NCBI GenBank assembly: GCA_960531495.1
Contig: OY482860.1
Location: forward strand, 734,501-798,500
Direction: 5' to 3'
Length of the DNA stretch: 64,000 bases
From: Zeus faber
Taxonomy: Eukaryota > Chordata > Actinopteri > Zeiformes > Zeidae
How positions within the stretch are numbered: position 1 is the stretch's first letter; each line of letters opens with the position of its first letter. Positions 21,419 through 57,741 of the stretch are shown here, piece by piece. Made by a program: the position numbers and the translations under genes. Below the pieces are notes generated by a model. That model did no database searches. It saw nothing but the letters and a program-made list of their open reading frames with translations, and had not been told where the DNA came from.

Positions 21419-21445
21419 CTACCGGATGATTGGCAAAGGATTGGA

Positions 21446-21446
<1 letters not shown>

Positions 21447-21487: not shown

Positions 21488-21490
<3 letters not shown>

Positions 21491-22205
21491 GTGAATCTGA
21501 AAAGGTTCTTTCTCCGTGATTTGACCTCACGGGATGCAAAGATGAGATGAAATGTGATGTAAACAAGGCCGAAGTGAACCTACACATTAAAAGCTACGTA
21601 CCACCATCATGCTTTTCCTCACTTGGAGTGTATTTGTTTCCCTCAAAGCCCCCAATAAGCTGCAATTAGGTACGATTGCTAAATCCACCTGGAAAATCAC
21701 AAGGAAGCAAGTGAATATAGTGAATGTTTTGAATGCATAAGAAAGCTCCTGCTCATAATTAATTTTTTGTTCGTTTTTTTGACTGGGTGTATATAAGAAC
21801 ACATTTGTATATTCTATATATTTTTATATATTTCTGTCTGGATTTTTCAGCTATTTGTGTATATTTGGAAAATTTTATTTAGATTTCATTTTTACAATGC
21901 ACCGTATTCTATTTTATTATAATTTCAATTGTATTTTATTTTTTCTTTACTTTTTATTTTGTGTTTTTACATAACTTTCATTCTATTTTATTTTATTCAA
22001 TTTGTTTTATTTTACATTACTTTTTATTCTAGTTCATTTTATTTCATTTTTTTCCATACTAATCGTCTGTAGAGAACTGCACCAATTCTGAACATGACAA
22101 ATTCCTCCTAAACGCAATATAGATAAACTAAAAATAAACTCATTAAATAAAACAAATACATTTATTCTGATTCTGCTTATATATTTGGGGAGTGGAGCCA
22201 CTCAC

Positions 22206-22469
22206 AGGTCCATTCCCGTTGCAGACCACCGCCTGGATCTTTTTGGGCAGGTGGTCCACGGAGCTCTCCAGTGCCGACCCCTCAGAGGCCATCTCTGTTG
22301 CCAGGGCAACGGGGTGGTCATAGAGATCAAGGCTGACCCCTCCGGCTTTTGGTGGTGCTGGCAGCATCCTCCTCTCCCGGAGCACCCGCATCCTAATCAC
22401 ACTGCCGGCCTTCCTCAGGGCTCCCACTGCCTGCTGGTGGCACGCCCCCTGCAGGTCGACACCGTTCAC
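22206..22469 (-). CDS. PDZ exon R: end of Scribble-PDZ1-like domain and linker
   Basis: This 264-bp phase-0 exon begins VNGVDLQGACHQQAVGALRK and continues AGSVIRMRVLRERR; Scribble PDZ1 has VNGVALQGAEHHEAVEALRG and MRVWRER. The histidine of the alpha-B helix is present, which predicts class I ligand binding. The last 50 residues are a linker ending VVCNGNGP. The acceptor is tcttttcag and the donor GGACCT|gtgagt, close to consensus. Confidence 0.9.
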
Positions 22470-22526
22470 CTGAAAAGATGGAGGAACCACGGTCACTGGA
22501 CACCCACATCAGGACCATAATTTAGG

Positions 22527-22571
22527 ACACACACACACACGCACGCACGCACGCACGCACGCACGCACACA
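22527..22571. repeat. (AC)n/(GCAC)n compound microsatellite
   Basis: CA dinucleotides pass into GCAC units. It sits in the intron upstream of PDZ exon R. Confidence 0.93.
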
Positions 22572-23609
22572 CTCATTGAAGTACCATGTCTATTCACAGA
22601 CATTAGAATCCGTTATTTATTCTCCATGTCTTGGATTATTAACATGGACGTTTACAATGCCACCTTAACCCGGATTATACTTTCTCTGGACATTGTTATC
22701 ATCTACACAGGATTATTTGTTGCCAATGAGCTTTTATAACACAATAACACTGCTTTATACTATATTATTACCAAATCATCATATTATATTAATTCATACT
22801 ATACTTCATGTATGATATTACCCTTTGGTCATTAAAAATAGTAAATACCTTATTCTCTAGTTACTTCTATAATCATTGCTGCTCTTGCCTGTACTTACTT
22901 ACTCTAGTGTAACTGCCCCTTTCCCACAGTGAGCTACTACAAGTAGTTAACACAGTGCTGCTCCATGTTAACTCTGTACAGGCCTGTGATCTGCGCTTCG
23001 CTGTGTGCACATCGGAGGGGTTTCCAAGGACATGTCCCTCATGAATGCGCATATCTTTCCCAACCAATCCACCACCCATTCATGCTTAAAAAAAACAAAA
23101 CAGGCCTGATAAAAAGGACGCCATGGGGCATCTAGGGGCATGTGCCTGCTCTATGGACAGATGTGTAAATATGTTTATTTTTATTTCACATCTTCTTTTC
23201 CCTTTCTTGACCTGCACTGCCGTGACACCTGAATCCCCCACAGGGATTAATAAAGTTGTTTTTTTTATCTTATATTGTCTTATCTTATCGCTCTAGTATA
23301 ATAAATACAATTGTCCACCTGCTCTTAATTTCCAATGACTCCATTTCTATTTCTTCTTATTGAATAGGGAATGCATTCTGCAGTCTTTAGTTTGTCTCAC
23401 ACCGTCCTCTGTAGGCCACAAGAGGAACAGCGATAACGCACACAATGCTACAGTTGTTGCTGTTGACTGTCTCCCCGTGGGTCTTTTTACAGTTTGATAC
23501 CGCTGCTGCGTCGATTGCAGACGCACTAAGTCTGTGTAGAAAATACTACAGCGGAGATTATGATAATGAAAAAAATATATAAAATAATAATAATAATCCC
23601 TTCCCAAAC

Positions 23610-23687
23610 CTCCAGCAATCTGTCTCCGACGTGGATCCCGGCCCTGTCGGATGAGCCTCCGCTGGAGACTCTGGAAATGAAGATTCC
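23610..23687 (-). CDS. PDZ exon Q: middle of Scribble-PDZ1-like domain
   Basis: This 78-bp phase-0 exon encodes GIFISRVSSGGSSDRAGIHV and GDRLLE, matching GIFISRVSEEGPAARAGVRV and GDKLLE of Scribble PDZ1. The acceptor is tcctctcag and the donor CTGGAG|gtttgg. It lies 0.6 kb downstream of exon P, with an AT-rich intron in between. Confidence 0.9.
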
Positions 23688-23755
23688 CTGAGAGGATGTA
23701 CAAGAAAGGGTTTGATTTTGATGTGCAGACGTTCAAGACTGAAGCGAATTAACCC

Positions 23756-23780
23756 AAATAATAATAATAATAATAATAAC
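23756..23780. repeat. (AAT)n microsatellite
   Basis: A run of ATA/TAA triplets in the intron between PDZ exons P and Q; a shorter one occurs at 23583-23597. Confidence 0.9.
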
Positions 23781-24298
23781 TTTACTTGTACAGCACCTTT
23801 CATACACAACATGCAAGTCGATTGATAGAAGTCGATCTAAAAGCAATAATAAAAGACAAACTACTCAAGTGGTCTTAACTTAAAACAACTTTCCTATACT
23901 AATTGTAAATACATTGACCAGTGCTGCTCCGAGATACTAAAATACTCGGATGGGTCGGATGCAGAGAAGTAGTTTCCTCCAGAGGAAATAATAATGGTCT
24001 ACATGTGCAATCAGTCAACTACATACTGTATATGTTAGTTCTAATACAGTGGTATTCAAACTGTGGGACACGGAGAAATTGCAAGGGAGGAGCGAGAGAA
24101 AAAATACAATCATAAAATTAAAGTAATAAATAAATACATTAAAAATAAAATGTATACAAATAAATAGAAAATAATACAATTTATTCATATTTAAATTTAT
24201 TTTCAATATTTGTTTTGTTGTGGGGCGTCAAGTACTTGGAACAGCCACTGATCCAATATCATGGCCAAGCCTCCCATGGATACTCCTTCAGGACCCAC

Positions 24299-24388
24299 CT
24301 CGTCATGTTCCCTGTACGGTAGAGATCCTCTTCCCCCGGCGATGCTGATTCCCAAACTGCTGTTCTGCCCCGAAACTCTGACCTGTAA
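24299..24388 (-). CDS. PDZ exon P: first part of Scribble-PDZ1-like domain
   Basis: This 90-bp phase-0 exon encodes LQVRVSGQNSSLGISIAGGR then GSLPYREHDE. Scribble PDZ1 has GGLGISIAGGKGSTPY ending DDE at the equivalent place, so LGIS is the carboxylate-binding loop. The acceptor is ctctgcag and the donor GACGAG|gtgggt. The splice point after D-E immediately before G-I-F is where the next exon resumes. Confidence 0.88.
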
Positions 24389-24587
24389 CTGCAGAGCAAG
24401 AGGGGGGAGGTCACCAGCAACACAGAATGGAACGCCATTTTAGTCAACATTAAATAAAATAAAAAAATAAATAAATGTGTTTATGAAATAAATAAGAGGC
24501 AATAAATATATACATAAATGTAAATATGAATATATAAATGGTTAAATATAGTTCAATAATAAATATAAATAAATATATTTCTATTTT

Positions 24588-24875
24588 AAAATGTCCCGAA
24601 AGAAGAGGTCCTACGATTCCCGAGGCCAGGGAACAGACTTTCCACCCGGGACCCAGGTGTGGGTCTACTGTCTGGAGAGAAAGAAGGGCCTCTCCCCCAA
24701 GCTGTGGAGTGAGCGAGCTGACACCTGCACTGTGCTGGAACAGCTGTCGGACGTGGTGTACAGGGTGCGGCTGGTCAAGTGGAACCAGGTGGTGCCCCTT
24801 CACCGTGACCGGCTCACTCCCTACCCGCCCCTGGCTCCAACCGAGAAGGTATCAGTAGCTGAGGACCAGCTCTGA
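24588..24875 (+). mobile_element. gypsy integrase tail fragment, plus strand
   Basis: The open frame reads SRKKRSYDSRGQGTDFPPGT and VWVYCLERKKGLSPKL with VVPLHRDRLTPYPPLAPTEK, clearly related to 17715-18026 but on the opposite strand. It is a truncated piece lying within the intron between linker exon O and PDZ exon P. Confidence 0.82.
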
Positions 24876-26022: not shown

Positions 26023-26232
26023 TCTTAAAGGCACTTGGGAGAGAGACATCTGCTCAGCCAAATCTCCCCGAAATCTCATATTCTCGGCAGGAGTAGGAGG
26101 ATCTTCTCGGTGGAGGTCCCCCGTGCTCAAAGCTCTCTGCCGAGGTAATTTCCTGTCAGCGCGACTCGACTCGTCTTCTCTGCGGTGACAAAGACGTGCA
26201 GCATTGCTCTCCAAAAACGGGTTTACCCCGTC
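26023..26232 (-). CDS. Proposed linker exon O of long lrrc1
   Basis: A strong pyrimidine-rich acceptor (ttccctccag) opens a 70-residue reading frame, phase 0 at both ends, ending AGA|gtaaac. It contains KLPRQRALSTGDLHRED and AENMRFRGDLAEQM and is rich in charged residues. I do not recognise a domain. The intron between it and exon N would be 131 bases, a common size in fish. The frame runs directly into the PDZ exon at 24388. Confidence 0.45.
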
Positions 26233-26363: not shown

Positions 26364-26635
26364 CTCCTTCTCCGCTGGGGCCAGTCCCAGTCCTTCAACG
26401 TCGTTTTCCTCCTCCTCCTCTGGACTGGAGCAGTGTTCGGCTGCCATGTTGTTTCCAACCAACCAGGATGCCGGGGGTCCCTCAGGCCAATGCTTCCAGT
26501 GGCCAGACCCCCTCCAGGAGCCTGAGGGGCCCAACAGGGACCGGTCTGGGCGACTGGCCCCAAAGGATGGTTTTTTAGCCAAATAAGTTCTACTTTCCTG
26601 GAGACAAGTTGGAAGGTGGAAGAGACCGGTCACTG
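26364..26635 (-). CDS. Proposed linker exon N of long lrrc1, with acidic run
   Basis: The stretch is open for 272 bases on the minus strand between an acceptor ttattttcag and a weak donor GAG|gttggt. It encodes VTGLFHLPTCLQESRTYLAK, a tryptophan- and glycine-containing middle, and an acidic run SSPEEEEENDVEG. Entry in phase 1 and exit in phase 0 fit the neighbours. Scribble has a similar glutamate-rich linker before PDZ1, but there is no clear residue-level match. An alternative acceptor gtctccag at 26597 would shorten it in the same frame. The exon boundaries are tentative. Confidence 0.45.
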
Positions 26636-28807: not shown

Positions 28808-29285
<478 letters not shown>

Positions 29286-31309: not shown

Positions 31310-31455
31310 CTTTTCGTCGTCGTCCTCGTCCTCGTCGTCGTCCTCCAGGAAGTGGATGGCACTGATCCTGTTCACGGCTCTGTCGGTCCAGTCGTCATCC
31401 ATCATGTCGTTCACCAGGCTCTGCAGTGCGCCGCAGCGGGCCAGGTTATCTGACC
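31310..31455 (-). CDS. lrrc1: lrrc1 exon 13: LANO-specific acidic segment
   Basis: This 146-bp exon encodes GSDNLARCGALQSLVND and DRAVNRISAIHFLE, then an acidic run of aspartate and glutamate. It closely matches the NLPRCGALENLVND and [21 protein letters not shown] region of human LRRC1, which sets LANO apart from Scribble. The acidic run is encoded by a near-pure GAC/GAG/GAA tract (31311-31350), so its length may vary. The donor is GAAAAG|gtgagg, phase 0. Confidence 0.97.
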
Positions 31456-31459
31456 CTGG

Positions 31460-32832
<1,373 letters not shown>

Positions 32833-33107
32833 TTATTTAAACCTGTAACAATACAAGCAGCCATACTGCCACTTACTCCCAGCTGCTGCCTTTTAATCGG
32901 ACTAATCCTGGAGACAGTATCGCTTCTTGATTTTATATATTCTGTATATATTTTTGTATATTTGGATTTTTGTGCTTTGTTCTTTTTGATAATCTTAGAA
33001 TCATTGTCCATTATTTATATTAGTATATCTATTAAATATATCTATAATCTTATATAAGGAAGTTGGACAATTACGAATTTGACTCGATACAATAGTATAG
33101 TATGCTA

Positions 33108-33320
<213 letters not shown>

Positions 33321-34980
33321 TCATTATATTTTACAGCCTTTACATAATCCAGACTAAAGCTACATGTCCAAACAGTATATAACAAGGTGAATATTGGTAA
33401 TTCGTTTCATTTATTGTGACAGACAGATTAAAAAAAATAAAAATATGAAAAAGAAAAGTGGCAATATATGAGGAAAATAATTACATACAATATTACATAA
33501 AATAATTACATACAATAAAACTCAGTTTTAGAAAAAGTTCAGAATATAATGCGATTTTTTGCACAGGATTGGCTATTGGTAGGGGCATGCATCTCTCCCT
33601 TATAAGAAAAACCGATAAGTATCTAGATACATGGGTTATGATACGGAACAATTCGGTGTGATTCGATACAATGCAATCTGGAACATTTCTTAAAATGTGT
33701 TTAACGTAGACATTAATTTCCCATTCTAAATTAAAATAAGCCAATTCTATAAAAGTATATCTTAAATATCTGATAATTTGGCAATTTTTCTCCATACAAA
33801 TTATATATATTATATAGATATTATTACAGATCTGACATTTCAATTATTCATTTTTTATCCTATTAAAATATATATTTTTTTTTTTCTCCTTTTTTTCTGG
33901 ACTGTTAAGCTTTTTAATTTTTAATGTTTATGGTCTTAATGTTCACCGAACCTCACAGAAGAAATTCCTAGTACATGTAAATGTACCTGACGAAAATCAA
34001 TTCTGATTCTAAAAGTGGCATTGCCTTACCTTTATGAGCATGAGGGAGAAGTGTTCGGTTGTCGGTTCAACGGTGTGAAATTAACCTCTTGAATCTTGAA
34101 TCTTAACTTGTAACATTAGATCAGTGAGTCTTCCGCAGCAGCGTAGTTTTTACTCAAGTAGAATGAGCAGCAAAGCTTCAGGCAAACAATTTAGAATTGG
34201 GCCATCGACCGTATCGTGGCACATTTAGATCGATCCAGGGGTATTTAGACTGTAAATTATAATTATAAATTATTCTATGTAGTGTAGGTAGGCATGTATT
34301 CTATGGGGGCTGTATTCTATCTACAGGGAACTAAAATTAGATGCAATTAGTCCCATTGGTGAGTTAACAGACTGAAGGCTCTTCATCTGCTTGGAAACTG
34401 GCATCCGTCACATTATCATGTTAAAAAGGGAAAGATGAGACTAGAACCTGACGTCAGTCCATCTGATTTGACACATGAGAATGTAAGGATGATTTCATAG
34501 CATCCATGTTCAACACATGACGTGATTTAATGATATTTTTCTTCATGTTAGCGATCACGTGGCGTTACATGATTGACATGTCACACACACAAAAAAAACA
34601 TGCAGACACATATATCCCAGGGTGGTAATCAGCCATCAAATTAATAATAAATAAATCACATTAACAAAACTGAGTCTTTGGTCAAGTTGTGGCTCAATAC
34701 CTAGCCCTGGAGTTCACTAAGATCTGTTGGGAACGTGGTGCTGCGCTCATGCTTTGGAGAGACAGTGAGAGACTAATATCTGGGCCAAGTGTGTCAGACG
34801 GTTAGTCTCTTCCCACTGTATTGCATCGCGGAGACACAGGAGCCATTGTGTAAGCCGTTTGAAAAGGCCTTTCAGATTCACACCAACCCAGAGACGGCTG
34901 CACTTTAACCGACAAGAGCTTTTCTAACACAATATCATGTCCCATTACAAAGCAAATAATGAGAATAATGGTATAAATCA

Positions 34981-35181
<201 letters not shown>

Positions 35182-36151
35182 TCACTTTAAAACAGCTTGT
35201 TATTTCTGAATCAAATAAGAATCCTGAAGGATCGTATCGGCATTAAAACAGAAACTTAAACATTAAATATTTTGATTTTCTTACATTCAAATGTAAAATA
35301 CATTCAAGTTGTTGTTTTTACTGCTGATCTACAAATCATTGCCAAAAGTATACTCCAATTTTGAACAAAGTGTTGGTAATCATACCCTTTGTAGTAATAC
35401 AGTCAACTTTGCAACATATTACCTTTTACCTGATCTTGACCTGTGTAGGAAACCCAACCTAACCTGAAGATGAGCTCCAGTAATATGGGAAGATATGTAT
35501 TTTATATAAAGCTATTTTATATCTAGGTTTTTATTACGTTAAATAAAATAAAGACAAAAGAGCCTTCAAAACCAGTCTGGAATATGATGACAGAAGCACA
35601 ACAAGGCATTCTCAAAAGCCCTGAAGGTACCTCGGCATCTCCATCGTACAGAAGAGGAAACAGCTCGAAACTACAGTCACTCGGCCTCGGTCAGACCAGC
35701 CCTCGAAAACTTAGTTACCCAAGAGGAACGGCACTTGTTGGGAGAAGCTACAGAAACACAAACTGTCTGAGCATGAGACTGAAAATGAGGTATAAATCTA
35801 GCTTAACAGCTAGATATGTAGCACCACAAGGTAGCACCACCACACTGAACAGTTTGGTGGTGGAAGCATGGAACTGGAGACCTTGATGAAAGTGGTTGAT
35901 GGAAAGATGAATGGTGGATTTTTTTTCAAATTGTGTACTTTATGTAGGAGGAAATATGGTCTATGCATTTGACCCATCTTAGTATCTAAGAGCAGAGGGC
36001 TGCAACAGAATGATCAAAACCCAGAGCTGTGATGATAATTTATGTGGAAAACAAAAGGGTTAGGGGCTGATTACTTGAATACTGATTGGAAAACGCACTT
36101 TGATTAATCATGTTAGTATTTTATAAACATCTGTGTGAGAACATGTATATA

Positions 36152-37750
36152 CAGTGGGGCAAAAAAGTATTTAGTCAGCCACCAATTGTGCAAGTTCTCC
36201 CACTTAAAAAGATGAGAGAGGCCTGTTATTTTCATCATACCTCAACTATGAGAGACAAAATGAGAAAAGAAAATCCAGAAAATCACATTGTCTGATTTTT
36301 AAAGAATTTATCTGCAAATTATGGTGGAAAATAAGTATTTGGTCAATAACAAAAGTTCATCTCAATACTTTGTTATATACCCTTTGTTTGCAATGACAGA
36401 GGTCGAACGTTTTCTGTAAGTCTTCACAAGGTTTTCACACACTGTTGCTGGTATTTTGGCCCATTCCTCCATGCAGATCTCCTCTAGAGCAGTGATGTTT
36501 TGGGGCTGTCGCTGGGCAACACAGACTTTCAACTCCCTCCAAAGGTTTTCTATGGGGTTGAGATCTGGAGACTGGCTAGGCCACTCCAGGACCGTGAAAT
36601 GCTTCTTGCGAAGCCACTTCTTCATTGCCCAGGCGGTGTGTTTGGGATCATTGTCATGCTGAAAGACCCAGCCACGTTTCATCTTCAATGCCCTTGCTGA
36701 TGGAAGGAGGTTTTCACTCAAAATCTAACGATACATGGCCCCATTCATTCTTTCCTTTACACGGATCAGTCGTCCTGGTCCCTTTGCAGAAAAACAGACC
36801 CAAAGCATGATGTTTCCACCCCCATGGTTCACAGTAGGTATGGTGTTCTTTGGATGCAACTCAGCTTTCTTTCTCCTCCAAACACGACAAGTTGAGTTTT
36901 TACCAAAAAGTTATATTTTGGTTTTATCTGACCATATGACATTCTCCCAATCCTCTTCTGGATCATCCAAATGCTCTCTAGCAAACTTCAGACAGGCCTG
37001 GACATGTACTGGCTTAAGCAGGGGGACACGTCTGGCACTGCAGGATTTGAGTCCCTGGCGGCGTAGTGTGTTACTGATGGTAGCCTTTGTTACTTTGGTC
37101 CCAGCTCTCTGCAGGTCATTCACTAGGTCCCCCCGTGTGGTTCTGGGATGTTTGCTCACTGTTCTTGTGATCATTTGGACCCCACGGGGTGAGATCTTGC
37201 GTGGAGCCCCAGATCGAGGGAGATTATCAGTGGTCTGGTATGTCTTCCATTTCCTAATAATTGCTCCCACAGTTGATTTCTTCACAACAAGCTGCTTACC
37301 TATTGCAGATTCAGTCTTCCCAGCCTGGTGCAGGTCTACAATTTTGTTTCTGGTGTCCTTTGACAGCTCTTTGGTCTTGGCCATAGTGGAGTTTGGAGTG
37401 TGACTGTTTGAGGTTGTGGACAGGTGTCTTTTATACTGATAACGAGTTCAAACAGGTGCCATTAATACAGGTAAGGAGTGGAGGACAGAGGAGCCTCTTA
37501 AAGAAAAAGTTACAGGTCTGTGAAAGCCAGAAATCTTGCTTGTTTGTAGGTGACCAAATACTTATTTTACCGAGGAATTTACCAATTAATTCATTAAAAA
37601 TCCTACAATGTGATTTCCTGGATTCTTTCCCCCCATTCTGTCTCTCATAGTCGAAGTGTAGCTATGATGAAAATTACAGGCCTCTCTCATCTTTTTAAGT
37701 GGGAGAACTTGCACAATTGGTGGCCGACTAAATACTTTTTTGCCCCACTG
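36152..37750 (-). mobile_element. Complete Tc1-type transposon
   Basis: Inverted repeats start CAGTGGGGCAAAAAAGTATT at 36152 and end with the reverse complement at 37750. Each is flanked by TA (36150-36151 and 37751-37752), the Tc1/mariner target duplication. The length of 1.6 kb is normal for the family. The transposase is on the minus strand. The element lies in the lrrc1 intron between exons 9 and 10. Confidence 0.95.
36362..37384 (-). pseudogene. Tc1 transposase with two premature stops
   Basis: Reading from 37384, [20 protein letters not shown] and [20 protein letters not shown] give the two helix-turn-helix regions. The first catalytic aspartate is in VIWSDKTK, the second in HDNDPKHT, and the glutamate in NPIENLW. 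A TAA follows SDKTKI near 36908, and a TAG follows AMYR near 36726, in the same frame with no shift between. All catalytic residues are retained, but the protein is truncated before the second one. Confidence 0.93.
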
Positions 37751-37754
37751 TATA

Positions 37755-38280
37755 CATATATACATTTACACATAAATTAACCACCACAACAATTTATGTG
37801 GAAACAGGACGACAACAATTTCCACTGCAACACATTTGTTTGGTAGCACCATTATTATTTACCAATATGAGATGTAAAAACAAAAAAATTTAAATTTAAA
37901 TAAAGTCAACATCAATAACCATCCAAGTTATTAACATATAAGAAACAATTGCAATAGTTAATACAGTTAATACAACCCCATCCATTATTTAGTCAGAGCA
38001 GCAAAAAAAAGTCGCCAGATAGAAGAAGAATCTCTTAGTTCCTGTTCTTGGACTGATTAATTTAGACTTGTCTTTGTTGTCTTTATCTATTTAGACTAAC
38101 TATTTAGACTACTATGTTTTAGAATCACCTATTTAGAAGTTTCTGCTCAAGAGTCGTTTGTGATTCCAGCCATTTGCAGTCCTTGACATTTATATAGTTT
38201 ATATATTAACAGAGGAACTTAAAAAGACCAAATCCTTGTGTCGTTATATTATTATGGATTAAATATTAAAAGATGTCTCC
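37755..38280. other. Intron next to Tc1, no feature seen
   Basis: AT-rich intronic sequence with no recognised repeat. Confidence 0.5.
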
Positions 38281-38316
38281 CTTCTGCCGCTTGTGCAGAT
38301 TGTTAAAATGCCGTAC

Positions 38317-38435
38317 CTGCAGCTGGTTCTCTGTCAGCACTAGCTCGGTCAGGTTCTCACAGCTGCCAATGCTATCTGGAAGCTGGATGAGCCGGTTCTG
38401 ATCTGCCTTGAGGATCGAGAGCCGTCCCAGTCTTC
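38317..38435 (-). CDS. lrrc1: lrrc1 exon 9: LRR segment
   Basis: This 119-bp exon encodes RLGRLSILKADQNRLIQLPD and then CENLTELVLTENQLQ. The acceptor is ccttacag and the donor is CTGCAG|gtacgg in phase 0. It reads continuously with the exons on either side and matches the SILKVDQNRL and LTELVLTENQL repeats of human LRRC1. Confidence 0.96.
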
Positions 38436-38739
38436 CTGTAAGGAGAGAAAACACTATATCAGGTACATTCTGTGCAGCAACTGGAGAAATTATGGAATTC
38501 ATCTCCTTAATCCCTTTTAATTCAAGTTGAAAAGGGTCAAATAAATATCCCAATACACCAGCCATGGAACACCACTGTGTTTTCAGTAGTGTTCATGAAT
38601 GTTAATGTAGGTCTCTGTTGTGCAAACATCTCAGTTCTAACTCCGGGGACAAAAAGCACAAATTTGATAAAGAAGAGCTTTTCTTCCCCATTTCCCAGCA
38701 GCTATGTCAGTCAGATAGAGAGATACACAGAGAGATACA

Positions 38740-38762
38740 CACACAGAGACAGAGAGAGAGAT

Positions 38763-38835
<73 letters not shown>

Positions 38836-38855
38836 CAGAGAGACAGAGAGATAGA

Positions 38856-38886
<31 letters not shown>

Positions 38887-38895
38887 CGCGAGAGA
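38740..38895. repeat. (AG)n with interspersed (ACAG)/(ATAG)
   Basis: A long purine-rich microsatellite on the plus strand. The RERERE and SLSLSL frames through it are artefacts. Confidence 0.97.
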
Positions 38896-38959
38896 GAGAT
38901 TCACCCCCAGGGAAATGCAGCGTCAGCAACAGCTTAAATTGTAATTTAAAAAAATTGAA

Positions 38960-41815
<2,856 letters not shown>

Positions 41816-41820
41816 CTTAC

Positions 41821-41895
41821 TGCAGGTATTTCGGCCAATTGGTTTCCGTCCAGCCACAGGTCCCTCAGGCTAACAAGGCAGCCTATTGTCTGCGG
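41821..41895 (-). CDS. lrrc1: lrrc1 exon 7: LRR segment
   Basis: This 75-bp exon, phase 0 at both ends, encodes PQTIGCLVSLRDLWLDGNQL and AEIPA. The acceptor ends in gtag and the donor is GCA|gtaagc. The LRDLWLDGNQL core is diagnostic of the LAP subfamily. Confidence 0.95.
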
Positions 41896-42242
41896 CTACA
41901 TAGGAGGAAGAAATGCAGAAACGGAGAAAGTGAGAGAGCGAAAGATAAGAGACAGATATAGATGTGGAGTAAAGAAAAAAAAAAGAATGTCTGTTTGAGT
42001 CATCTATTTGGTAGACTCTCTGAGGTACAGAATGATTCAATTAAATTTAAGTGTAACTCAATGGACATTTGTGGGGGAGGATTGTTTCTAAGAAAGAGTT
42101 GCACACTCTTGCAAGGAATCAATTAATTCCTAATGGTACGATTTTAAGTCAGTTATCGGTCTTCATGGGAAACTAATTAACCCCGACGGTACACCAACAA
42201 GGAAATGGGAGAACAAAAATCTTCTGTAAACATCACACTTAC

Positions 42243-42306
42243 CAAACTGTACAGTTCATTGTTTCCCAGATCGAGCTCTTCAAGTCTTTCCAGTTGTGAC
42301 AGTGAA
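42243..42306 (-). CDS. lrrc1: lrrc1 exon 6: LRR segment
   Basis: This 64-bp exon encodes SLSQLERLEELDLGNNELYS plus a leucine and ends in phase 0 at TTTG|gtaagtgt. The LEELDLGNNE core is shared by LANO and Scribble. The preceding acceptor is ttaacag. Confidence 0.95.
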
Positions 42307-42962
42307 CTGTTAATTACGAAAAGAGACAAATTCATTTAAACCGGAAAAATCTGCAAAATCTTTTAGGGGGCTTTAAACTGAATCCGACAAACGACAACAC
42401 AACAACAAACAGGAAGCCTAATTCATTTCTCCGGAGAAGTCGGATTCTGCACGAGAAACACTCCGATACTCTGCGGCTCCAAATTTCCACGTCCAATCGA
42501 GGCTTTGGGACAAGTTCAGATTTTTTAATTCTTGCGACAAATTTTGGATCCGACACTACGATCGGAAGTCACTTTTTTTCATTGGAACTGGATTTAAATT
42601 TAAATAAGTCTGTTCATACAATAATGACATTCAAGTTGGATGTCACCATATTCAGCATTAATAAATCTACTTTTATATTAATAATTTGTACATTGGTTTT
42701 TTGCACTTCACTCACATTCAGTGAAAACGTTAAATGTCCAGACGAGCAAACCACTAATCTGTATAAGAACCAGCTCCGCCGACTTCTAAAACATATTTTG
42801 TGATTTTGCAAAATCCTGACACATGAGCTACCAACGGCGGCCTTAGAGGATGTGGGGGGTTCTGACAGTCAGATCAGTTTTGGGATTCTTTGTGAAGCCA
42901 GCTTTTGGAGGAGGATGGTTAAATATTGTTTAAAAAATTGTAGGCCGTGTTTCAATACTCAC

Positions 42963-43019
42963 TCTGGTAAGAAGGTCAGCATGTTTTCTCTGAGCTCCAG
43001 CGAAACCAGATTAGACAGG
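42963..43019 (-). CDS. lrrc1: lrrc1 exon 5: LRR segment
   Basis: This is the smallest exon, 57 bp, encoding LSNLVSLELRENMLTFLP. The acceptor is gttacag and the donor is CCAGA|gtgagt, phase 2 in and out. The segment is one LRR unit with the usual LxxLxLxxN spacing and matches the LENLASLELRENLL-type repeat of LANO. Confidence 0.95.
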
Positions 43020-43404
43020 CTGTAACGACAAACAGAGCAAAAGGGATCATGGGTAATGTGTAAAACTGGGATACTTAAAAATTAAAAAATTAAATAAAAT
43101 AGCATTTGTCCAGAGCCCAACGGGAAATCTTTCCCCCGCTGGGAGTAGATTTCTGAATCCAGGAAGTCATTTTGAGGCGTAGTGTCACTCTTATCAAAGC
43201 GGTAAACTCCAAGGCAGCATCAACAAAGCCTTCACTTTAAATCAAGTTGCCATGACAGCATTTGGCTTGGATGACCACAGAGTAGGATTTTTGTTCTAAA
43301 AATTGGATGTGTCAAAAGCAAAATGTGTAATACACCATATGCTTAGGGTGCACATAACATCCATATATTTTCTTCTCCGACGGCCAGAAAGCTTTTACAG
43401 TTGG

Positions 43405-43870
43405 AAAGTTCTCATTCAGACATAGATTTTAAAACCTGTGAAAACCTGGCCTGAAGGAGTGTCTCTACAACTGCAGGACTGTTTCCAATGTACCAACTGG
43501 GACCTGTTGTCTGATCAACATGTAGAGGAATACACCTCAACAGTACTCTTCTACATCAGGACCTGTGTTGAAAATGTCACCATCAAACGCATGTGTTTTC
43601 GCAAACAGGAAACCAAACAAAGGAGGTCCAGATCCTTTTGAAGACCCACAAAGCAGCCTTCAGGTCTGGTGACAGAACAGTACGCCAGACAGTATGCCAG
43701 ACACAACCCGAAGAAAGGCATCAAATGTGCAAAGGCCGCATACAAGAAAAAGATTGAGGACCACTTCACCAATAGGGATCCAATGCGTGGATCGTTGCAG
43801 GCAATCAATCCAGCCAATCATCAATTACAGGAGCAACACCCTCAGGCAACAAAGCCTTGCTGGTAAAATA
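43405..43870 (+). mobile_element. Non-LTR retrotransposon fragment (EN-RT linker)
   Basis: The translation reads LQDCFQCTNWDLLSDQHVEE and then ARHNPKKGIKCAKAAYKKKI, the stretch between endonuclease and RT in CR1/Rex-like LINEs, with a stop near 43640. The family level is approximate. It lies in the large lrrc1 intron. Confidence 0.65.
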
Positions 43871-44659
43871 ACTTAATTTTCCTATTCCCACTTTGAGGCA
43901 AAAAGGGTAGCTACACCCCGCAGCTACCACCAATCACGTACTTACCATACAGACACAGGAGGTAAGGCAAATTCTCAGCATTGTGAACGCTGGAATCTCA
44001 TCGGGGGGGGGGCAGTGACGGAGATATTGTTCCCATTACGCACAGTGTTTTTTTGGTTTCATATAACAATAACTCATCTACAATAAAAACACAGACGGTG
44101 AACTTGAACTTGAACCTTTAAAGCCGGGTCACGCAGAGCGTGGGCGTTCACGTAACGTGCAAATCAGTGGGTATTACAATAACAGGATAAAACAGACAAC
44201 GCTTACAAAATGCACAGGGATAACATTTCAATTTGGAATTATAAATAAGGGGAATAATAATTATTTGTTCCATACGCATGTTTCGTTCCATAAGCAGATG
44301 TAAAATAAAATAACCTACATCTAAAATAAAAACACATTTGTTTTGGCGCAGGGATCGTCGGTGTCGTCGGAGCTGCTACTAATCACCATCTATGCCACAC
44401 GCACCACCACATCCAAATCATCCATCTGCTTCCATGCTGTTGCACCACTGCACGCATACATCCACATACTGTACATCCTCTCTATGTGCGCAAGTGTATG
44501 AGCTCTGTCCGTCACTTCCTGTGGTCCCCCAGACGAGGAATACATATGCAATACCATAAAAATATTGCATATGGTGGCAAATATCGTGGTATGGAATATT
44601 ATCAAATATCGGCCCAAGCCTACCACAGAGAGTGTACTGACAATATATTACAATATGAT

Positions 44660-44895
44660 ATTCCAACTGTTAAGCAGCAGACAGAAGAACTTTTCGGAGA
44701 GTCATAAACATAGCCCAGAAAATAATTGGACTTCCCCTGCCCTCAATGGAAGACACTGCCTCTGCAGAGCCAGCAGCAGCTGAAGGATGCTACTCATCCA
44801 TATCATCATCGCTTCTCTCTGCTGCCATCTGGAAGGCGCAAAGGTCTCAAAGACCCGCTCAGAAACACATAGCCCCAGATTAAAAACATTTGGGG
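44660..44895 (+). mobile_element. LINE 3' terminal fragment
   Basis: Frame-shifted pieces read IIGLPLPS and SLLPSGRRKG, the conserved C-terminal motif after RT in many fish LINEs (LLPSGRR). It may be the 3' end of the fragment at 43405 with the RT lost between. Confidence 0.6.
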
Positions 44896-45179
44896 TTGAG
44901 CTACAACCTTTGTTTTATGAATGAAGAACAAGAGTTCTTACTATGCCTTGAGCTAGCGTAACTCTGTACGCAGGCTAACACCTGGCACTGTCAAAACAGC
45001 CTGTGCCAGTGCTGACGCCGTCATGTCGAGACTGTAGGATCTGGCTGACGTGTGTGGTGTAGACCAAGAAGCAGTAGTAAAAATAAAAAAATAAAAAAAT
45101 CTTGAAATCTAGTGCATACCCCCTTGACTGAAACTCCTCATTAAAACAGCCACGAGGTAGCCACATTCCTAGTTGAATA

Positions 45180-47540
45180 TACTTTAATACCCTCTGGGGG
45201 TCAGCCAAAATCTCAGGCCGCCTCGACACTCATGCATAATGGTTAGTAGCCAGGAGAGGTCCCTGGATGGACGCACCCACTGTTTTATAAACCAGCGTTG
45301 CAGGGCTCTCATCCTGAACAGACACAGTGGGACTGTAGCTGAGGCAGCTGCCATCAAGGCCAGCAGGACCATAACCTGACGTGCCCTGGCGACCTTGCAC
45401 AGGGACAGCATGCAAGCAGCAATGGCAACAACCAACCTCCTTGTCGGAATCAGCTGTACACGCATCGACCGCGAGTCTAGATCGAGGCCCAGAGAGACTG
45501 AACAGGAGAACGCAATACTCATATGCCCCGTCCTGAAGGGCAAACCTCATATTTCCTGTGCCTTTCCACGATTGGTATGTGAAAGTAAGCATCTTTCAAA
45601 TCCCCTGATGTAAACCAGTCTCCCCGTCAGATAGATTTGAACAGGTGACTGTGTGTTAAAATTTGAAGCGGGAGCTTTCTCAATGTTTTGTTTAAAATTC
45701 TCATATCGGATTGGTCTCTGAGCGGTCTTTTTTTGTAATAAGGAAATATCTGCTGTAGAAGCCGCAGTTTCTCTCTCTCTCCAGTACCAGGCGAATGCGC
45801 CCTTCTCCAGCAAAGACTGAATCTCCCCTTCCAGGATGGAGGACATTAAGCCCAAGAATTCCATCTGTGAGACTCGAGCGAACACTGGTGGACGCAGGGC
45901 GAACTGCAGTGCATAGCCCTTTAAAACTGTCCTCTCTAGCCAGGGAGAAACTTCTCATACACTCAAGCGGAGAGGCATGGTTTCTGTCAGTGATGGTACC
46001 AGGGCGGATTCGCCCACAAATTGAGCCTCTGGCCACATAATCTGGGCAAGAGGCTCACACCCCTGTTTATGTGTTTGGTGATATTTTCCTTTTGGGCCAT
46101 GACACTCATATCTCTGCGTGGACAGGGGGCCTCGATCAACACACCGGGAAAACACACTTAAGGGAGGGAGGGGAAATAAAGACTATTTTGTGTACATTAA
46201 CTGCACAGCATTCACTGGCACGGGAATTGGTACAGCAGAATGTCTTTTTCATGCTAGAGGTAGAGGCGATAGTCCAGCAGCACCCAGAATCCCCTCTCTG
46301 TAGTGCCTCAGGTCCTCTGCACCTTCCTGCCGCTCACCCCCGAAGCCTGCGGCTGCTTGGGATGGCGGAAAGGATTGCTGTTCCAGCCCTCCATCCCATC
46401 AGCCAAGGCTGGGATGTCTTCTTGGTCGGAGCCGGACAGGAACTGGATCGAACAGGCCCGACACCTTCCCTGGAGCTTCCAGGAGCCTGGTCTTCTCCTC
46501 AGATATCTTAGATAGGTTCAGCCACAGGTGGCACAGTGTCACCACCAAAAACCCCATCACATTGGCCTGTGAGCGAAGACGGTGGCTTTGCACAGTTCCA
46601 CACAGGTCTTGGGGGTTGGCCTTCTACTCCAGGTCCCATAGGAGCCTGGTCTGGTAGGCCTGTAGCAGGCAGATGTTTTGCAGCGCCGCAGCCTGCCCTG
46701 CGACCTTGTATGACATTTCAGCCGAATTTGCCGTCTGCCTGCATGCCCTGGACGGCAATCAAGTTTTTTCAGCGGTGAGAGGGGGGCACAGGTGGACAGC
46801 TACCAGTTCCTGTGGGGGGGTGGGGGGGGTCGTCAGGTATCCCAACTCTGGGCTCAGTTTCCAGTGTCAACCATTGGTTGAACGCCTGGAGAGGGGAGCG
46901 CATCTTGTGGGGAGCGCCCTAAGACGACCTTACCTCCTTGGTGAAATCCTCCAGCACTGGGAGGGGACCTGGGCGGAGAGTCCGATCTCCAGCCTACGTA
47001 AAATATGACCCAGACAGCATGGAGGGAGCCGTGGGTTCGGGGTCTGCCCAAGGGATCCCCAGCTCCAGGAGGCGCAGCAACTTCAGGTGAAACGGCCCCT
47101 GGGAGGCTTTGTGAGCAGCACCATGTGTCCCCTCACCTGGCTCTTCTCCTTCCCCCACCTCCTCCACCTCTGAGCCCCACTGGGCTGTATTGTATGGAAG
47201 TCCTGCAACTCCTGGTGCGTGGCCAACTCCTCCTGATCCACCTGGCACCGATACTAAGGGAGATAGATAGAGGCAGGGGAGCGTGGCCTTGAAACAAGGC
47301 CGAAGGACGGGAGAGCCGATTCCTCCTCTTCGCCCTCCACCATGACGCTCCTAGGCCCTTGGCAGAAGATGTCAGCCCAATGGCAGCAGCAGCACCACCT
47401 CCATGGGCCTGTGCATGGCATAGGCAGCGGACGCACGGCACAGGCAGCAGACGCACAACGGATGAGTATCCCTGCAGGTCATGTGTGCGCTGCAGCCCGC
47501 ACATGCCTTTAAGACTGCAGCAGATATGATTATTTTCCTA
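45180..47540 (-). mobile_element. DIRS1-like retrotransposon fragment
   Basis: The minus strand carries an RT start with FYSRYFLITKKDRSETNPI (about 45720), then MRFALQDGAYEYCVLLFSLS (45500s), and VLLALMAAASATVPLCLFRM (about 45350), in the order found in DIRS-type elements. Frames are shifted between them and the YLDD-type box is lost. Upstream 46.2-47.5 kb is GC-rich, with proline and arginine-rich frames that may be its gag. Terminal repeats were not identified. Confidence 0.7.
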
Positions 47541-47585
47541 ATTTTCTCTGGTCTTTCTTTTCCTAATTTTCACTTCTCAATTTGG

Positions 47586-47815
47586 TGTGGCACGGTGGCG
47601 CAGTGCATTGCACTGCTGCCTCACAGCAAGAAGGTCCTGGGTTAGATTCTTTCCCAAATAGGAGCCTTTCTGTGTGGAGTTTGCATGTTCTCCCCGTGCT
47701 CACATGGGGTTTCCTCCACCTCACGTCAGTAAGGACCCCCACCAAAAAAAGTGTGTGTGTTTGTGCAAGCATGTGTTGTGTTGCGTGACGAATAAAGACT
47801 CTTTCTCTTTCAGTA
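47586..47815 (+). mobile_element. tRNA-like SINE-type repeat
   Basis: It starts GGCACGGTGGCGCAGTGCAT and includes CTGCCTCACAGCAAGAAGGT with a decayed B box (GGGTTAGATTC). The middle holds GTGTGGAGTTTGCATGTTCT, and the tail TGTTGCGTGACGAATAAAGA carries a polyadenylation-like hexamer. The tail recurs at 52195-52240. Confidence 0.75.
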
Positions 47816-48806
47816 ATAGAGGGCTTGCTTCCAACAGTAAGGAGCTGAATAACCAAAGAGGAAGTATGACAGGTGGTGGCCCAGTATATACAGTATACAG
47901 GGGGCGGGCCTCATGTGGCCCAATCATAGCCTGTCAGGGCCGAGTATAGACTTGATTGGTTTAAAAGGGCTTTCAGCATTATTCAGTGGAGCTGTCTGGA
48001 GACAGCTTTAGACATAGTAAGAACTGAAGTTTGAAGTGAAGTAAGACAGCTTTTACCCCAGAGCCATCATTGAACTGAACTCCACAAAACATTGTCCGCT
48101 TAACAAAATCCCCCAACATCATCTCAACACTCCACAGGGCTAAAAACTTGAATAGTATTTCCATACAATGAGGAAATGTGCAATAACATCTGTAAATATT
48201 CGTATATAAAGTGAAATAATATTTATAAAGTGCAATAGCATTTGGTACAACGTACAATATTAGCTTCTGATATGCCACATACCTTGTTTTATCTTTTTAT
48301 CTTTCTATTACAATAATTTATCTGTATGAGCAGGTGTGCATGTGTGGAATGTTAAATGAACTGTTTTAGGAGCTGCAGAGGAATATTTTATTGTACAATG
48401 TGCAATGACAATGAAAACATTCTATGCTATTACCACTTATATCAGCAAAAAACCCCAGATTAAGAGAATCCAGTCGGTGCGTTGTGCTTAATCTAGTGGA
48501 GAGGGATTTCTACAGCGACCGAACAGGGTCACTGTGTCGAGGATTTAAAAAGGCAGAACATCCATTTTTAATATTTTCTTGCTCAATTTGAACGATATGG
48601 TGAGAAACCTTCCTTAAAATTATTTCCAGGTCGCACTGACAACTGACAACCACAGTAACATGTACAGTATTTTTCGCAAAGTTACTTTATCATTTTGCTG
48701 TATTTGTGTATGTTAATCCCATTTGAATAAGGTGGAAGCACCTTAGAAAATAGAGAAAATATTATTAGATAGAAAGAATATATACATACTCTGTGTGAGC
48801 ATATGC

Positions 48807-48811
<5 letters not shown>

Positions 48812-48870
<59 letters not shown>
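48812..48870. repeat. (TA)n microsatellite
   Basis: About 30 TA units in the large lrrc1 intron. Confidence 0.97.
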
Positions 48871-48874
<4 letters not shown>

Positions 48875-48879
48875 CATTT

Positions 48880-51800
48880 AGAAACAAACAAAACAATCCA
48901 AATAAAAAAGTTCAAATGTTATAATTGATCAGCTTATCTAAAGTGTGCCGACTAGTAAACGGCCTAAAACTCAATTTGACACAGCTAAACTAAATCTCCT
49001 TGAAACTAACTGTTTTCCCCCAAACTGTTGCCATCATGGTTTCCATTTCCTGTGTTCCTCAGCAGATAGCAGATTTTAACTCCCTGCGTTACGTAACAGC
49101 TACGGGAAACACATGCCGGGCACATGCCGTACCGAGGGAGGAAGACAGATCCATGACTGACAACGCCACATGAGCACGAGGCTTCATTCTTCCACTAAAG
49201 TGTAGAATAATTTAAATCCCACAATAGGACCGATGTGATGATAAATCAAAACAAAACAACGTGCAGCGCTTTCTACGTAGAATTATGCCTTCCCCAGCCT
49301 TCTTATGAGAGAGAGATATAGTATGTTAACAATTAACGGACTATCGATTAATTGCTAATAACAGTTTTATCAACGTTGCATAAGTCCCCACGTGCGATGG
49401 CCCCACCCTGTGGTGACGTCATGCCTGCGTTTATGTTATCAATTAATTGACAGTTAACAACTGTCGATAAAGAAAATTCATTTAGATATGCATCCCTTAG
49501 ACAGACAGACAGACAGACAACTATAAAAAAAAGAAAGTGACAATATATGTGGAAAAATGTGGGAATATACAATAATTCCTAATTATCTGTACCTAATAAA
49601 ATATGACAATATACACTAAACCTAATGACAAACAACAACAAAATTACAGAAAAACAATTTAAAAAAAAAAATCGAAAAATATTTAAAAAAAAAACTGAAA
49701 CATATACAATAACTAATGAAATTAAGCTAGACGTGAACCAGGAAAATTAACCTAAAAATAAGAAAGAAAATCACATCATGAATCACTGAAGCAGGCATCT
49801 GGTTGAGCGCTGCATCATCACTCAGGGGTGAAGCAATAATCCCTAAATCATGTCAGTGTGGCAAGTCCCAACACCACAGCCTCCGTTATTTAACAGTGTA
49901 AACAGGCTCACCAGATATAGGGAACGGATGGAGCGGCAGAGATCCATCTCAGCTGTTCTGAGTCAGAGGAGGGTCTAAAGAACACCTCATTTTGCAATAC
50001 GCCCATTCCACATCCCAACGCTATATAAATGGACTTTAACACCAATAACTGACTTTAGCAGCAAAGGTTTAAACATGTCCAGCTGCATTTTAACCCCGTG
50101 CTTGGGAAACAGCAACGTATGATTACCCAAGATGGCACCACACCCACACATCAGGAAACTAGAAGCATTTCCTCCCACTAGTTCTGCCTCTCAATGCATC
50201 CGAGTGTCCAGCTGAAGTCTATTGAGCCAGACATCAGTATCTTTATCTACATATCTATATTTAAAAATCCCCCACCTCAAGTGCTTATGCTTGGGTGCTC
50301 CGTTATCTGGCTGCCGTGGCCATGCTACGAAGATAAGTTCATTATAAACAACTCTTTTTCTGTTTGGAGGATTTTGAAGGGGGCGGGGCTAAACGTGAAC
50401 CTGGCTGGACATCACCTTCAACACGAGTCTTACTAATGTTACAGGTATAACAAAATTGCAGGTATTTTGCGAATACTTTGGGGTTTTCAGTGAAATTAGC
50501 TTTTCCATCTTTGACACCTAATTGTCAAGAAGCCACCTGCATTTATACGGAAGAGATAAAATCGGAACCTGCGTCTGAAATGGCACATTAGCATATACTG
50601 ATCAGTGCACCACATGAGTAGGTTAACGTGTTGAGTATTTGGCTGTAAAGCGTATCCCATAATGCGCTGTGAGCTTCTATACAGTGTTGTCAACTCATTA
50701 TTTTTCCTCACACGCTTAAATATGCTGGACAATGGTAGTCACATGTAGTATGTCACCTAGGGTTTAGTTATGAAAGGCTGTGTGCCAGATGTTAACCCTA
50801 TGGGGCAACAGAATTTACCGATTAATGTATTGTAACCAATATATGTGCCTCGTTGGATTCTGTGTAAATCCAACTTTGCAACAAGAACAATTGTGTGGAA
50901 AAAGTGTGATCAATGCATACCAAATTTAAATCCAGTTGTTGATGATTCCAATGTCTTATTTGATACATAGATGCAGAAAGGAAGGAAACCTCCAAAGAAA
51001 TGTTCGAAGCTGAACTCTTTGATTTTTGACTTAATGACAAAGGTGAAAAGGCTGATTTAATCGTGAAGAGGATGTTTTAGTGCTAGGGTGAGAAACCTTC
51101 ATCCTCTGTTTAGTATAGTATCGCAGTTTAACGCAATAAAAGAAAAAAGTTTTGTATTATACTATTATTATATTAACATAACACCATCCGCTCTGTGGAT
51201 ATCTTTAAACAGCAACTGAAAACATACACATTTACTCTGGCATTTAACTAGTATGACTGTTCTTGTAACTGTTGTTTTTTTTTCTCCTCAAATGAACTAT
51301 TCATTCACTTTAAATAATTCATTACTGTAAATGATTAATTGCTAAATGTCAGTTAAAGCACTTTGAACTGCAAATTTAGCATGAAAGGTGCTATAAAATA
51401 AAGATTATCATCATTATATATCTAAAAAAAAAATTTACTTATATTGACAAACCACTTGTTGAGGCAGAAATGCAGGAATGAAAGGCTGGTGCATATTAGA
51501 GCTTAGAACTGCGGAAGCCTTTTTTAAAAGCAAACATAATCCGACTTTGAATTGTTCTTGCACTGATGGTCAGTAAAAGTGGATTATTTTATTGCTGGTA
51601 AATGGACGGGTGGCGAGCAACGATTCTTGGAAAGTTGTTTATCTCTAGCCCCGAAAATCAGCTTCAGCCAGGTGTGTTTAGATATATATGAGGAATTTGT
51701 CATGGTGGTTTATTGGTGCATTTCTACAGAAGATGAGATTTTTAAAAAGCATGACAGTAAAAAAAGTAAATAAATAATAGAAAAATACAAAACATAAGTA

Positions 51801-52080
51801 GTCAAATATATAAAATAATACAGACAATCTAGCAGAATACACATCTCCCAAGAATAAAAGATATAAAAACACATAAAATGGCTAGTAGTACCTGGATAAT
51901 ACTGGCTCAGTATAATAGCTCAAAAGTGAGTTTTAGGAAGTGAAAATCCCATTCATTGTCATAACCATCCAAGGTAGGCTTACAAGTTATGAGATTGGGA
52001 AACAATTGTATATGCACCTGTAAAAGCCACAAGTCTGTATGATATGAACCATGTTTTCATTTATCACCTGGTCCCCGGGC
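48880..52080. other. Large lrrc1 intron, no gene seen
   Basis: A (GACA)n tract lies at 49500-49519 and A-rich tracts at 49640-49700. No further repeat, exon or domain is recognised. Confidence 0.5.
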
Positions 52081-52084
52081 GCGT

Positions 52085-52255
52085 CCACGTATGCTGCCCA
52101 CTGCTCCTGGCTGTGCCCCCGGAGGAAGGACAAGCCAGGATGGGTCAAAAGCAGAGGATCCATTTCACCGGCCACCATCAAGCATGTGCATGTGTGTGCA
52201 AGCATGTGTTGTAGTGTGGTGTGTTGTGTGACGAATAAAGACTGTTTCTTCTTCT
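52085..52255 (+). repeat. Retroposon tail related to 47586-47815
   Basis: The block GCTGCCCACTGCTCCTGGCT leads into CATTTCACCGGCCACCATCA and ends GTGTTGTGTGACGAATAAAG, the same 3' end as the SINE-type repeat at 47.6 kb. A shorter relative lies at 6515-6570. Confidence 0.7.
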
Positions 52256-52677
52256 CTCTGTTTCTAATCCTACAGTGTAGTCTCTTTTTCATCATTGAAT
52301 CCGGGTAGGTAGTTCCTCCACTCTTTAAATAATGATGTACAGAGTCTTGTACCTTATGCTTTTTTTCCCATTTTTCAATTTTAAGATCCTCCGAATCTTA
52401 TGTTTTATGGTCACAATTCATCTGGTAGTTGGTTGGCTTGGGTCCAGGCTTAAAAGTCTTTCTATAAGATTTTCTGAAACGTCAATGGAGTGAATAAATG
52501 AGAAATTCACTTCCAGAAACTGAGACGTTCAAAAAGTGGGCGGTCACTGCTGAGCGCTAGATAACCTCTCTCCATCTCAAAAATATATATTTAACAAAAA
52601 ATGAAGGCTGTGTATTAATAAAAGGTATTCAACAGATATTATAAAAAAATATATATATTGGAAATATTGGACACTTA

Positions 52678-52794
<117 letters not shown>

Positions 52795-53764
52795 TTAGTT
52801 ATTTTTGTAATTACTATGATTTAGAAAAGGTCATAAAAAGAAAAATATAACTTTCCTTAATAAATTATTACTTAAAAAAAAAAATGCAGAATTGTCATAT
52901 AAAGAGAGAACACTATTTATTTTCCCTGCAGAAACCTTGTGTAAAAATATATTTAAAAAGATGCCTGTCTAAGTACAATAAAGACAGATTCTTAGTGGCG
53001 TGGTGTTTTTTCAGATTTTAAAGCTTTCAATGTGGCTGTAGATCAGGCTCATGCTGACGTAGCTGACCTTCTGCTCAGTGACAGATCTAGTTGCAAATGC
53101 AACATCAATCAATAGATTATTTTTTTGATTTGATTAATCTATGAAACTAATCTATACTGTATAATTATTGTAAATTCTGGTAAAATGGTGAAAAATGAAT
53201 GAGGAGCACTGTATCTGAACCCAAACAGGCATCTTGAAGTTACTTAATGTTTTGCCGGAAGTCTTAAGGCATGATTTCTTAATTTTAGAACGCAGAACAG
53301 AGACATGCATTCACATGTTTATCTTTAGAATGGTGCATAAAAGAACCTTTTCCAAAACACATCCCAAACCAGAGCATTACAAAAATCATCCGATTCATTG
53401 TAGGGCTACACAACTAATTGTATATTGATCGCAATGTTGATATTGGCCTTCACAATTAAACACACAGGAAACCAGCAACTACTGTTTTATAGAAGTGCAT
53501 AAGTAGTTAATTAGTTTTATCATCAGAGACATTTCCATACTTTTTATTCAGGTAAGCTAATTTCCTTTTCTTATCAGTGCATCTCTCTACAGTCAGGTTT
53601 CTAAACCTGTACATTTTGCTTCAAAGCACCTTCCGTTTTATGACAATAATTTTTCTTTTCATATTCGTTTTTCTAATCAGTGCATTTGGTTCTTGGCATT
53701 TCATGTATTTAGAAGTCATCGCCAATATACGCTGCATATCAATGGGAACAGTGGAGCTGTTCTC

Positions 53765-54110
53765 ACTGCTTTGTCGGCATATTCAAGTCTGGTAGAATTT
53801 TTGAAGTAGAAATCCTCAGTATGGCAAGCAAAAGTTCATCATTCAACCTGGATCTGTGCTTTGACTTGTTGATGTTCATGACTAAGGTTTGCTCGCAGAT
53901 GTAGGTGGATCCAAACAGGTTGCCTTGTGTTTGGAAACTTGGCCTCACTCAAAGAGGCGTAGAACTCAGGCAGAGTCTCAAACTTGTGTCTGACCGTAGA
54001 ATCGCAGAAACGTAGATACTTGATATTTTCTAATGTTTTGACAAAGCAATCACTCCTGGAAACAGCAGGGGGCGTCTGCCTCTCCTCCTGCTGCATAATG
54101 GCCTATTACA
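53765..54110 (-). mobile_element. hAT transposase C-terminal fragment
   Basis: The minus strand reads FGSTYICEQTLVMNINKSKH and SRLNDELLLAILRIST, the C-terminal dimerisation region of GTF2IRD2/ZBED-type hAT transposases. It begins with a frame containing FETLPEFYASLSEAKFPN and then shifts. It is in the intron between lrrc1 exons 3 and 4. Confidence 0.82.
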
Positions 54111-54857
54111 CAGAGACAATGGCAGGAGAATGGCTGAACAAACTGATAACCCCAAATGCTATAATTCTGATCATTAAGTTAATGTAATAATAAGATCAAA
54201 AAATATTTTCATTTATTTTGTTCCCCTAGTTTCTTACTTGTATGGAAGTGAAAAATGTAAACATAACTAAGAGAATTGGAGTGGAGTTTTCTCCTCCAGA
54301 CAGTGGTGCGCCATGTGATAGAAGGATGAAATTGGTAATGACCTCCTCGTCCGTAGCTCAGTAAAACTGATAAAAAGCGAATTACCCCCCAAAAAAACTG
54401 TTTCCCTTTAAGATGGAATCTGCCTTGGCTCTACCTACAGATCCATCTGATAAGACTGGAAGAGGGAAAGACAGACACAGCAAACTCAACAAAACATTGC
54501 ATCCGTTTGCTGTGTCAACACTGTTTAGAAGTGCCAGATCTGAATCTGCGTAATAATACTTTACATTCGGCACTTCCAAACAGAGGCAGAGCACTGCGGT
54601 TCTACCCCTGCTAAGGTGCAAATTAACCCAGACCCCAGCCAAACAAAGATAAATCAAGAGGCAGAGGGCAAACATTTACACGACCTGTCGAGAACAGTGC
54701 ATGTGTATTCACAAGGACCACTGTGTTTATTTAAGGTGATTTAAACGCAGGGCTAAAATGCAAAATCAAAGAGAAGAAACCCCCAAATTGAAACTACTAA
54801 ATGTAGATGGATAGTAATAGCTTGTTCCATTTGTGAACATTTGTTTTGTATCGATTA

Positions 54858-56725
<1,868 letters not shown>

Positions 56726-57474: not shown

Positions 57475-57741
<267 letters not shown>

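Follow-up and report, generated by a model that had tools for sequence, protein, structure and literature searches.

The window analysed here is a stretch of 64,000 nucleotides from Zeus faber (C16:734501-798500, in a genome of 803,497,848 bases and 153 contigs), and its minus strand carries an lrrc1 gene that was modelled in spliced form, with AG/GT ends and consistent phases. Exon 1 falls outside the window (L015:2889-3047), where tblastn located it at 85% identity to residues 1-53 of LANO; here and in all identity figures that follow, LANO and SCRIB stand for human working reference sequences. The first exon inside the window is exon 2 (57507..57624), followed by exons 3 to 13, which span 31310..55027 (E3-E6 at 55027-54949, 52768-52679, 43019-42963 and 42306-42243; E7-E10 at 41895-41821, 40498-40354, 38435-38317 and 35148-35065; E11-E13 at 33272-33157, 32752-32583 and 31455-31310), and by a short LANO-type last exon, E14S (28808..28975), that ends in TTSTSV and a stop codon. 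Joined in phase, E2 to E14S (57624 to 28808) give an open frame of 476 residues. Its LRR part is 75% identical to human LANO over 474 columns and 60% identical to human SCRIB over 457 columns, and since it is nearer to LANO, we identify the gene upstream of the PDZ exons, on the same strand, from its sequence as lrrc1 and not scrib. The published length of hLano, 524 residues (PMC10333293), equals that of the LANO sequence used here.

By coding score E14S exceeds 99.7% of 1,500 open stretches, and its start aligns with the TPHP exon of scrib (60% over 30 amino acids). The short form of the protein has a class I PDZ ligand (STSV) at its C-terminus, after the TPHP region, and no PDZ domain; exons for one begin 4.4 kb further downstream. 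When the genome was searched with the LRR protein, 70 matches came up, and among the 89 of 219 candidates that were scored there was one lrrc1-like locus and no second lrrc1 copy. Upstream of lrrc1 there is a BTB-Kelch gene (L017:4756-6932, plus strand), which we take to resemble KLHL31, and KLHL31 presumably also adjoins human LRRC1.

Beyond the stop codon of the short form, three further minus-strand exons were found, all in phase 0: P1 (24299..24388, 90 nt), which carries the carboxylate-binding loop LGIS, P2 (23610..23687, 78 nt) and P3 (22206..22469), whose 3′ end reads ...KKIQAVVCNGNGP|gtgagt. From the final base of that stop codon (28808) to the start of P1 (24388) the distance is 4,420 bases, in line with the 4.4 kb of the original prediction, whose coordinates, strand, phase and exon breaks (DE|GIF and LLE|VNG) likewise held. 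It had further claimed that these exons encode a whole PDZ domain, and a profile search bore this out: joined, they make 144 amino acids with one complete PDZ domain, matching PF00595 with an E-value of 1.2e-18 and 67.6 bits (cut-off 23.2). Alone, P2 reaches 26.8 bits with the same profile, and neither P1 nor P3 alone matched any Pfam family. The joined exons contain no stop codon and no frameshift, and all six PDZ splice sites are present. Searching the genome with the joined 144 amino acids, with 124 of 124 candidates scored, gave 11 matches at E ≤ 0.001, three of them the window exons and two on C19; the window exons were the only near-identical places in the genome. We saw nothing that would speak for an assembly error or a chance resemblance, and such an origin is hardly credible given the E-value and the single-copy, ordered exons on a contig of 31.7 Mb.

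Compared with the four PDZ domains of human SCRIB, the joined exons are closest to PDZ1 (56/89 positions identical), ahead of PDZ2 (41/77), PDZ3 (35/87) and PDZ4 (39/74). A phmmer search of the PDB found Scribble chains with a PDZ1-type sequence to be the closest solved single domains (103-106 bits), and we take these chains to be PDZ1 from that sequence; other Scribble chains, whose PDZ number is unstated, scored about 73-75 and 55-56 bits. The top PDB row was a DLG4 chain at 127 bits, which is the sum of three PDZ domains, the best single one reaching 48.7. The scrib gene of the same genome (C19:2022001-2049000; L069, L070 and L071) was used as a control; it contains LRR exons, a TPHP exon and linkers, together with parts of four PDZ domains. 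In this scrib the first PDZ1 exon has 90 nt and the second 78 nt, with breaks at DE|GIF and LLE|VNG, as in P1 and P2 of lrrc1. The original prediction had matched each exon to PDZ1 of Scribble and had placed the exon breaks at these two points, and both agree with these comparisons, to which the equal exon sizes can be added; that the domain next to lrrc1 is a Scribble-type PDZ1 is well supported. The third PDZ1 exon of scrib, which P3 matches at 59% over 37 amino acids, continues into the start of PDZ2. P3 ends near the point where this happens, and by eye its last residues resemble the start of scrib PDZ2.

The shared exon structure would also be seen if a segment of scrib from the same genome had recently been duplicated next to lrrc1. 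A recent copy should side with the scrib it came from, and the site pattern does not follow this: lrrc1 PDZ1 is identical to the scrib of its own genome at 54/89 positions and to human SCRIB at 56/89, whereas that scrib and human SCRIB are identical at 75/89. With the three sequences side by side, 52 of the 89 positions are alike in all and 8 differ in all, lrrc1 alone differs at 23, and lrrc1 sides with human SCRIB alone at 4 and with its own scrib alone at 2. On these sites a recent duplication is disfavoured to the point of being very improbable, and lrrc1 PDZ1 looks like an old paralogue and not a recent scrib copy, an age that we regard as well supported. We rest the age argument on the site patterns because the maximum-likelihood tree left the PDZ1 fork open. 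Such a tree with the SCRIB PDZ domains had been proposed in the original prediction, and it did group lrrc1 PDZ1 with the PDZ1 and PDZ2 rows; long branches meet elsewhere in the tree.

The original prediction had also suggested that this lineage kept part of an ancestral Scribble-like tail. The site pattern fits an old paralogue. PDZ2-4 were not found: tblastn with human SCRIB detected none of the three in the window, where those among the matches listed were off-target only (E 0.49 or weaker), and none in the 60 kb below it. A SCRIB-type four-PDZ tail was not found at lrrc1 across the window and these 60 kb. Queries with scrib linker peptides gave no convincing counterpart of the scrib linker exons or the GVSFD exon in 20000-31500. 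It is possible, though in our estimate rather unlikely, that the PDZ exons are a relic that once belonged to lrrc1, with the short end having taken over and the exons silenced too recently to decay. The loss of PDZ2-4 and the weak or lost linker exons fit this reading, as do the retroelement-like open frames in and below the tail and the fact that the scrib exon matching E14 continues while E14 of lrrc1 ends in a stop codon. In the tree, the lrrc1 PDZ1 branch (0.49) is much longer than those of scrib PDZ1 (0.08 and 0.11), a difference that we count against the explanation we prefer. The lack of stop codons is weak evidence alone and does not decide against a relic, because about 10% of 3,000 neutral simulations without indels, run on 144 codons to 62% amino acid identity, also stayed free of stops.

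What does weigh against a relic is that P1-P3 have neither frameshift nor stop, that their six splice sites are all present, and that both their codon pattern and their peptide contacts appear constrained like the LRR. Between lrrc1 and scrib, the 89 PDZ1 codons differ at 28 first, 21 second and 52 third positions, with a dN of 0.37, a dS of 1.46 and a dN/dS of 0.25 (NG86), while the LRR differs at 70, 39 and 126 such positions over 238 codons (dN 0.28, dS 1.33, dN/dS 0.21). These values support the view that the PDZ1 exons have been about as constrained as the LRR exons, the recent past excepted: dN/dS averages both lineages and dS is near saturation, so that function lost over the most recent tens of millions of years would leave no trace in them. 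When each exon was ranked against 1,500 open stretches by coding score, P2 fell in the top 0.5%, P3 in the top 1.1% and P1 in the top 6%.

Twelve peptide-touching residues have been published for Scribble PDZ1 (PMC10333293), and 11 of these 12 are kept in lrrc1 PDZ1, including H793, the one change being T749 to L. The residues for class I peptide binding are thus present, and binding of such peptides by lrrc1 PDZ1 is predicted. The same study tabulates four peptides with Scribble PDZ1, and two of them end in T-S-V (PMC10333293), the last three residues of the short lrrc1 form. In a further study, binding of one such ligand was abolished when H793A (PDZ1) and H1170A (PDZ4) were combined (PMC6773690).

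Splice sites were scored by a position matrix built on general splice-site frequencies. Only two donors in 20800-31400 score above 6.5, one at 31310, the end of E13, and one at 28942, inside E14. The E13 donor is in the top 0.1%, and E13 ends in phase 0. Ranked among all AG in the window, the PDZ acceptors lie in the top 0.1% (P1), 0.7% (P2) and 0.4% (P3), that of P1 being the highest score in 20800-31500; unrelated strong acceptors occur at 28256 and 24667, and the P2 donor is middling (top 10.6%). Use of the inner donor (CCG|GTGAGT, phase 1, PWM score 7.2) would leave a possible shortened E14 at 28942..28975 on the minus strand. The same codons (P-G/S-E-L) in the TPHP exon of scrib (L071) read GTGAGC and score 2.6 versus 7.2 for lrrc1 (28938-28945, minus strand), and the exon that contains the donor-like GTGAG of scrib is read through. 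Because the matching scrib codons also make GTGAG, the donor at 28942 is maybe partly a by-product, and coding constraint may be a partial cause of its strength. By eye, the scrib TPHP exon seems to be in phase 0 at both ends, so skipping an E14 of this type would keep the frame, and skipping appears likelier than the inner donor as a route to P1-P3.

Two candidate linker exons, both weak, could lie between E13 or E14 and P1 on the minus strand. The first, T1, is tentatively placed at 26364..26597 or 26364..26635; its acceptor at 26597 is in frame from E13 and in the top 2.1% of all AG, and the alternative at 26635 is in frame from 28942 and poor (top 45% of all AG). The T1 donor is in the top 5% and its coding score in the 6% tail. 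The second, T2 (26023..26232), combines an acceptor in the top 0.2% with a donor that ranks low (top 28% among all GT) and a coding score in the 22% tail. Whether E13 is joined to 26597 or 28942 to 26635, the frame stays open across T1, T2 and P1-P3. A speculative last exon (candidate exon X, VDLAIVPNC...VVRSF and a stop codon, at 21587..21688 on the minus strand) has an acceptor in the top 1.1% and was rejected, as it has no coding signal (47% tail). Between T2 and P1 there is an open stretch on the plus strand (24573-24875) with an unremarkable coding score, which we take to resemble the tail of a retroelement integrase. Long open stretches on the minus strand at 894-2981, 8042-9881 and 17659-19976 presumably resemble LINE and Ty3-type retroelement proteins.

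With these results in hand, we lean towards the explanation that P1-P3 are a retained and still constrained part of lrrc1, usable as an alternative 3′ end, and we consider it likely that they belong to lrrc1 transcripts, as the phases permit. The 4.4 kb that separate the PDZ exons from the LANO stop codon, and the in-frame ATG codons within T1 and T2, could instead point to a separate small gene or transcript, with its own promoter, that uses the PDZ exons without the LRR. This seems improbable to us, since the order and strand of the exons are as in scrib and no CpG island was found at 22-28.5 kb in 500-base bins, a scan that CpG-poor promoters would escape. If the PDZ exons are an alternative end of lrrc1, reading exon 14 to its stop codon would give the LANO protein with its STSV ligand, and either skipping exon 14, which would join E13 and P1-P3 in phase 0, or using the inner donor would place the linker and PDZ1 exons after the LRR. 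One locus would then make either an LRR protein with a PDZ ligand or an LRR protein with a PDZ domain. Because T-S-V ends occur among the peptides tabulated with Scribble PDZ1, the short form, or other tails that end in T-S-V, might by analogy be ligands of the long form. More tentatively, and with some doubt on our part, the choice of last exon could decide whether lrrc1 yields a PDZ ligand or a PDZ domain fit to bind it, and each form could then associate with the other, alternating at the basolateral membrane between the roles of cargo and scaffold. From the general history of the family together with the comparison made here, we infer that a Scribble-like tail with this PDZ1 was already present in the ancestor of SCRIB and LANO.

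LANO, a polarity protein with LRRs alone, is in part redundant with Scribble and Erbin. Among the LAP proteins, mammalian LANO alone is described as lacking a PDZ domain (PMC12731447). No PDZ domain in a vertebrate LRRC1 came up in the titles and abstract openings that were searched; such a form may already be present in automatic annotation. The lrrc1 gene described here is like mammalian LANO in the identity of its LRR and in a short form that ends in T-S-V, and unlike it in having PDZ1 exons that follow the gene. LANO counts as the LAP protein that has no PDZ; a constrained PDZ1 in its gene would, if true, represent a halfway stage in the parting of LANO and Scribble, and nature would thereby offer a way to test what a polarity protein with LRRs alone gains from PDZ1. 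In the PDB, a PDZ chain has been deposited under the name Leucine-rich repeat-containing protein 1 in 8boj, 8buw and 8bv7; 8boj shares that name with the gene studied here and scores 57 bits with phmmer, far under the Scribble PDZ1 chains. The likeness to SCRIB PDZ1 itself lies in the identity, the 90 and 78 nt exons, the breaks and phases and the contact residues, and SCRIB differs in that the lrrc1 tail has one PDZ domain, with P3 stopping where PDZ2 begins, in that the lrrc1 linker exons are not alignable with its own, and in that PDZ1 here stands behind a LANO-type LRR. ERBIN and densin-180 (LRRC7) have one PDZ domain each and are LAP proteins with the one-PDZ layout of the proposed long form; they are likened to it by layout alone, whereas in sequence and exon structure the lrrc1 PDZ is like Scribble PDZ1.
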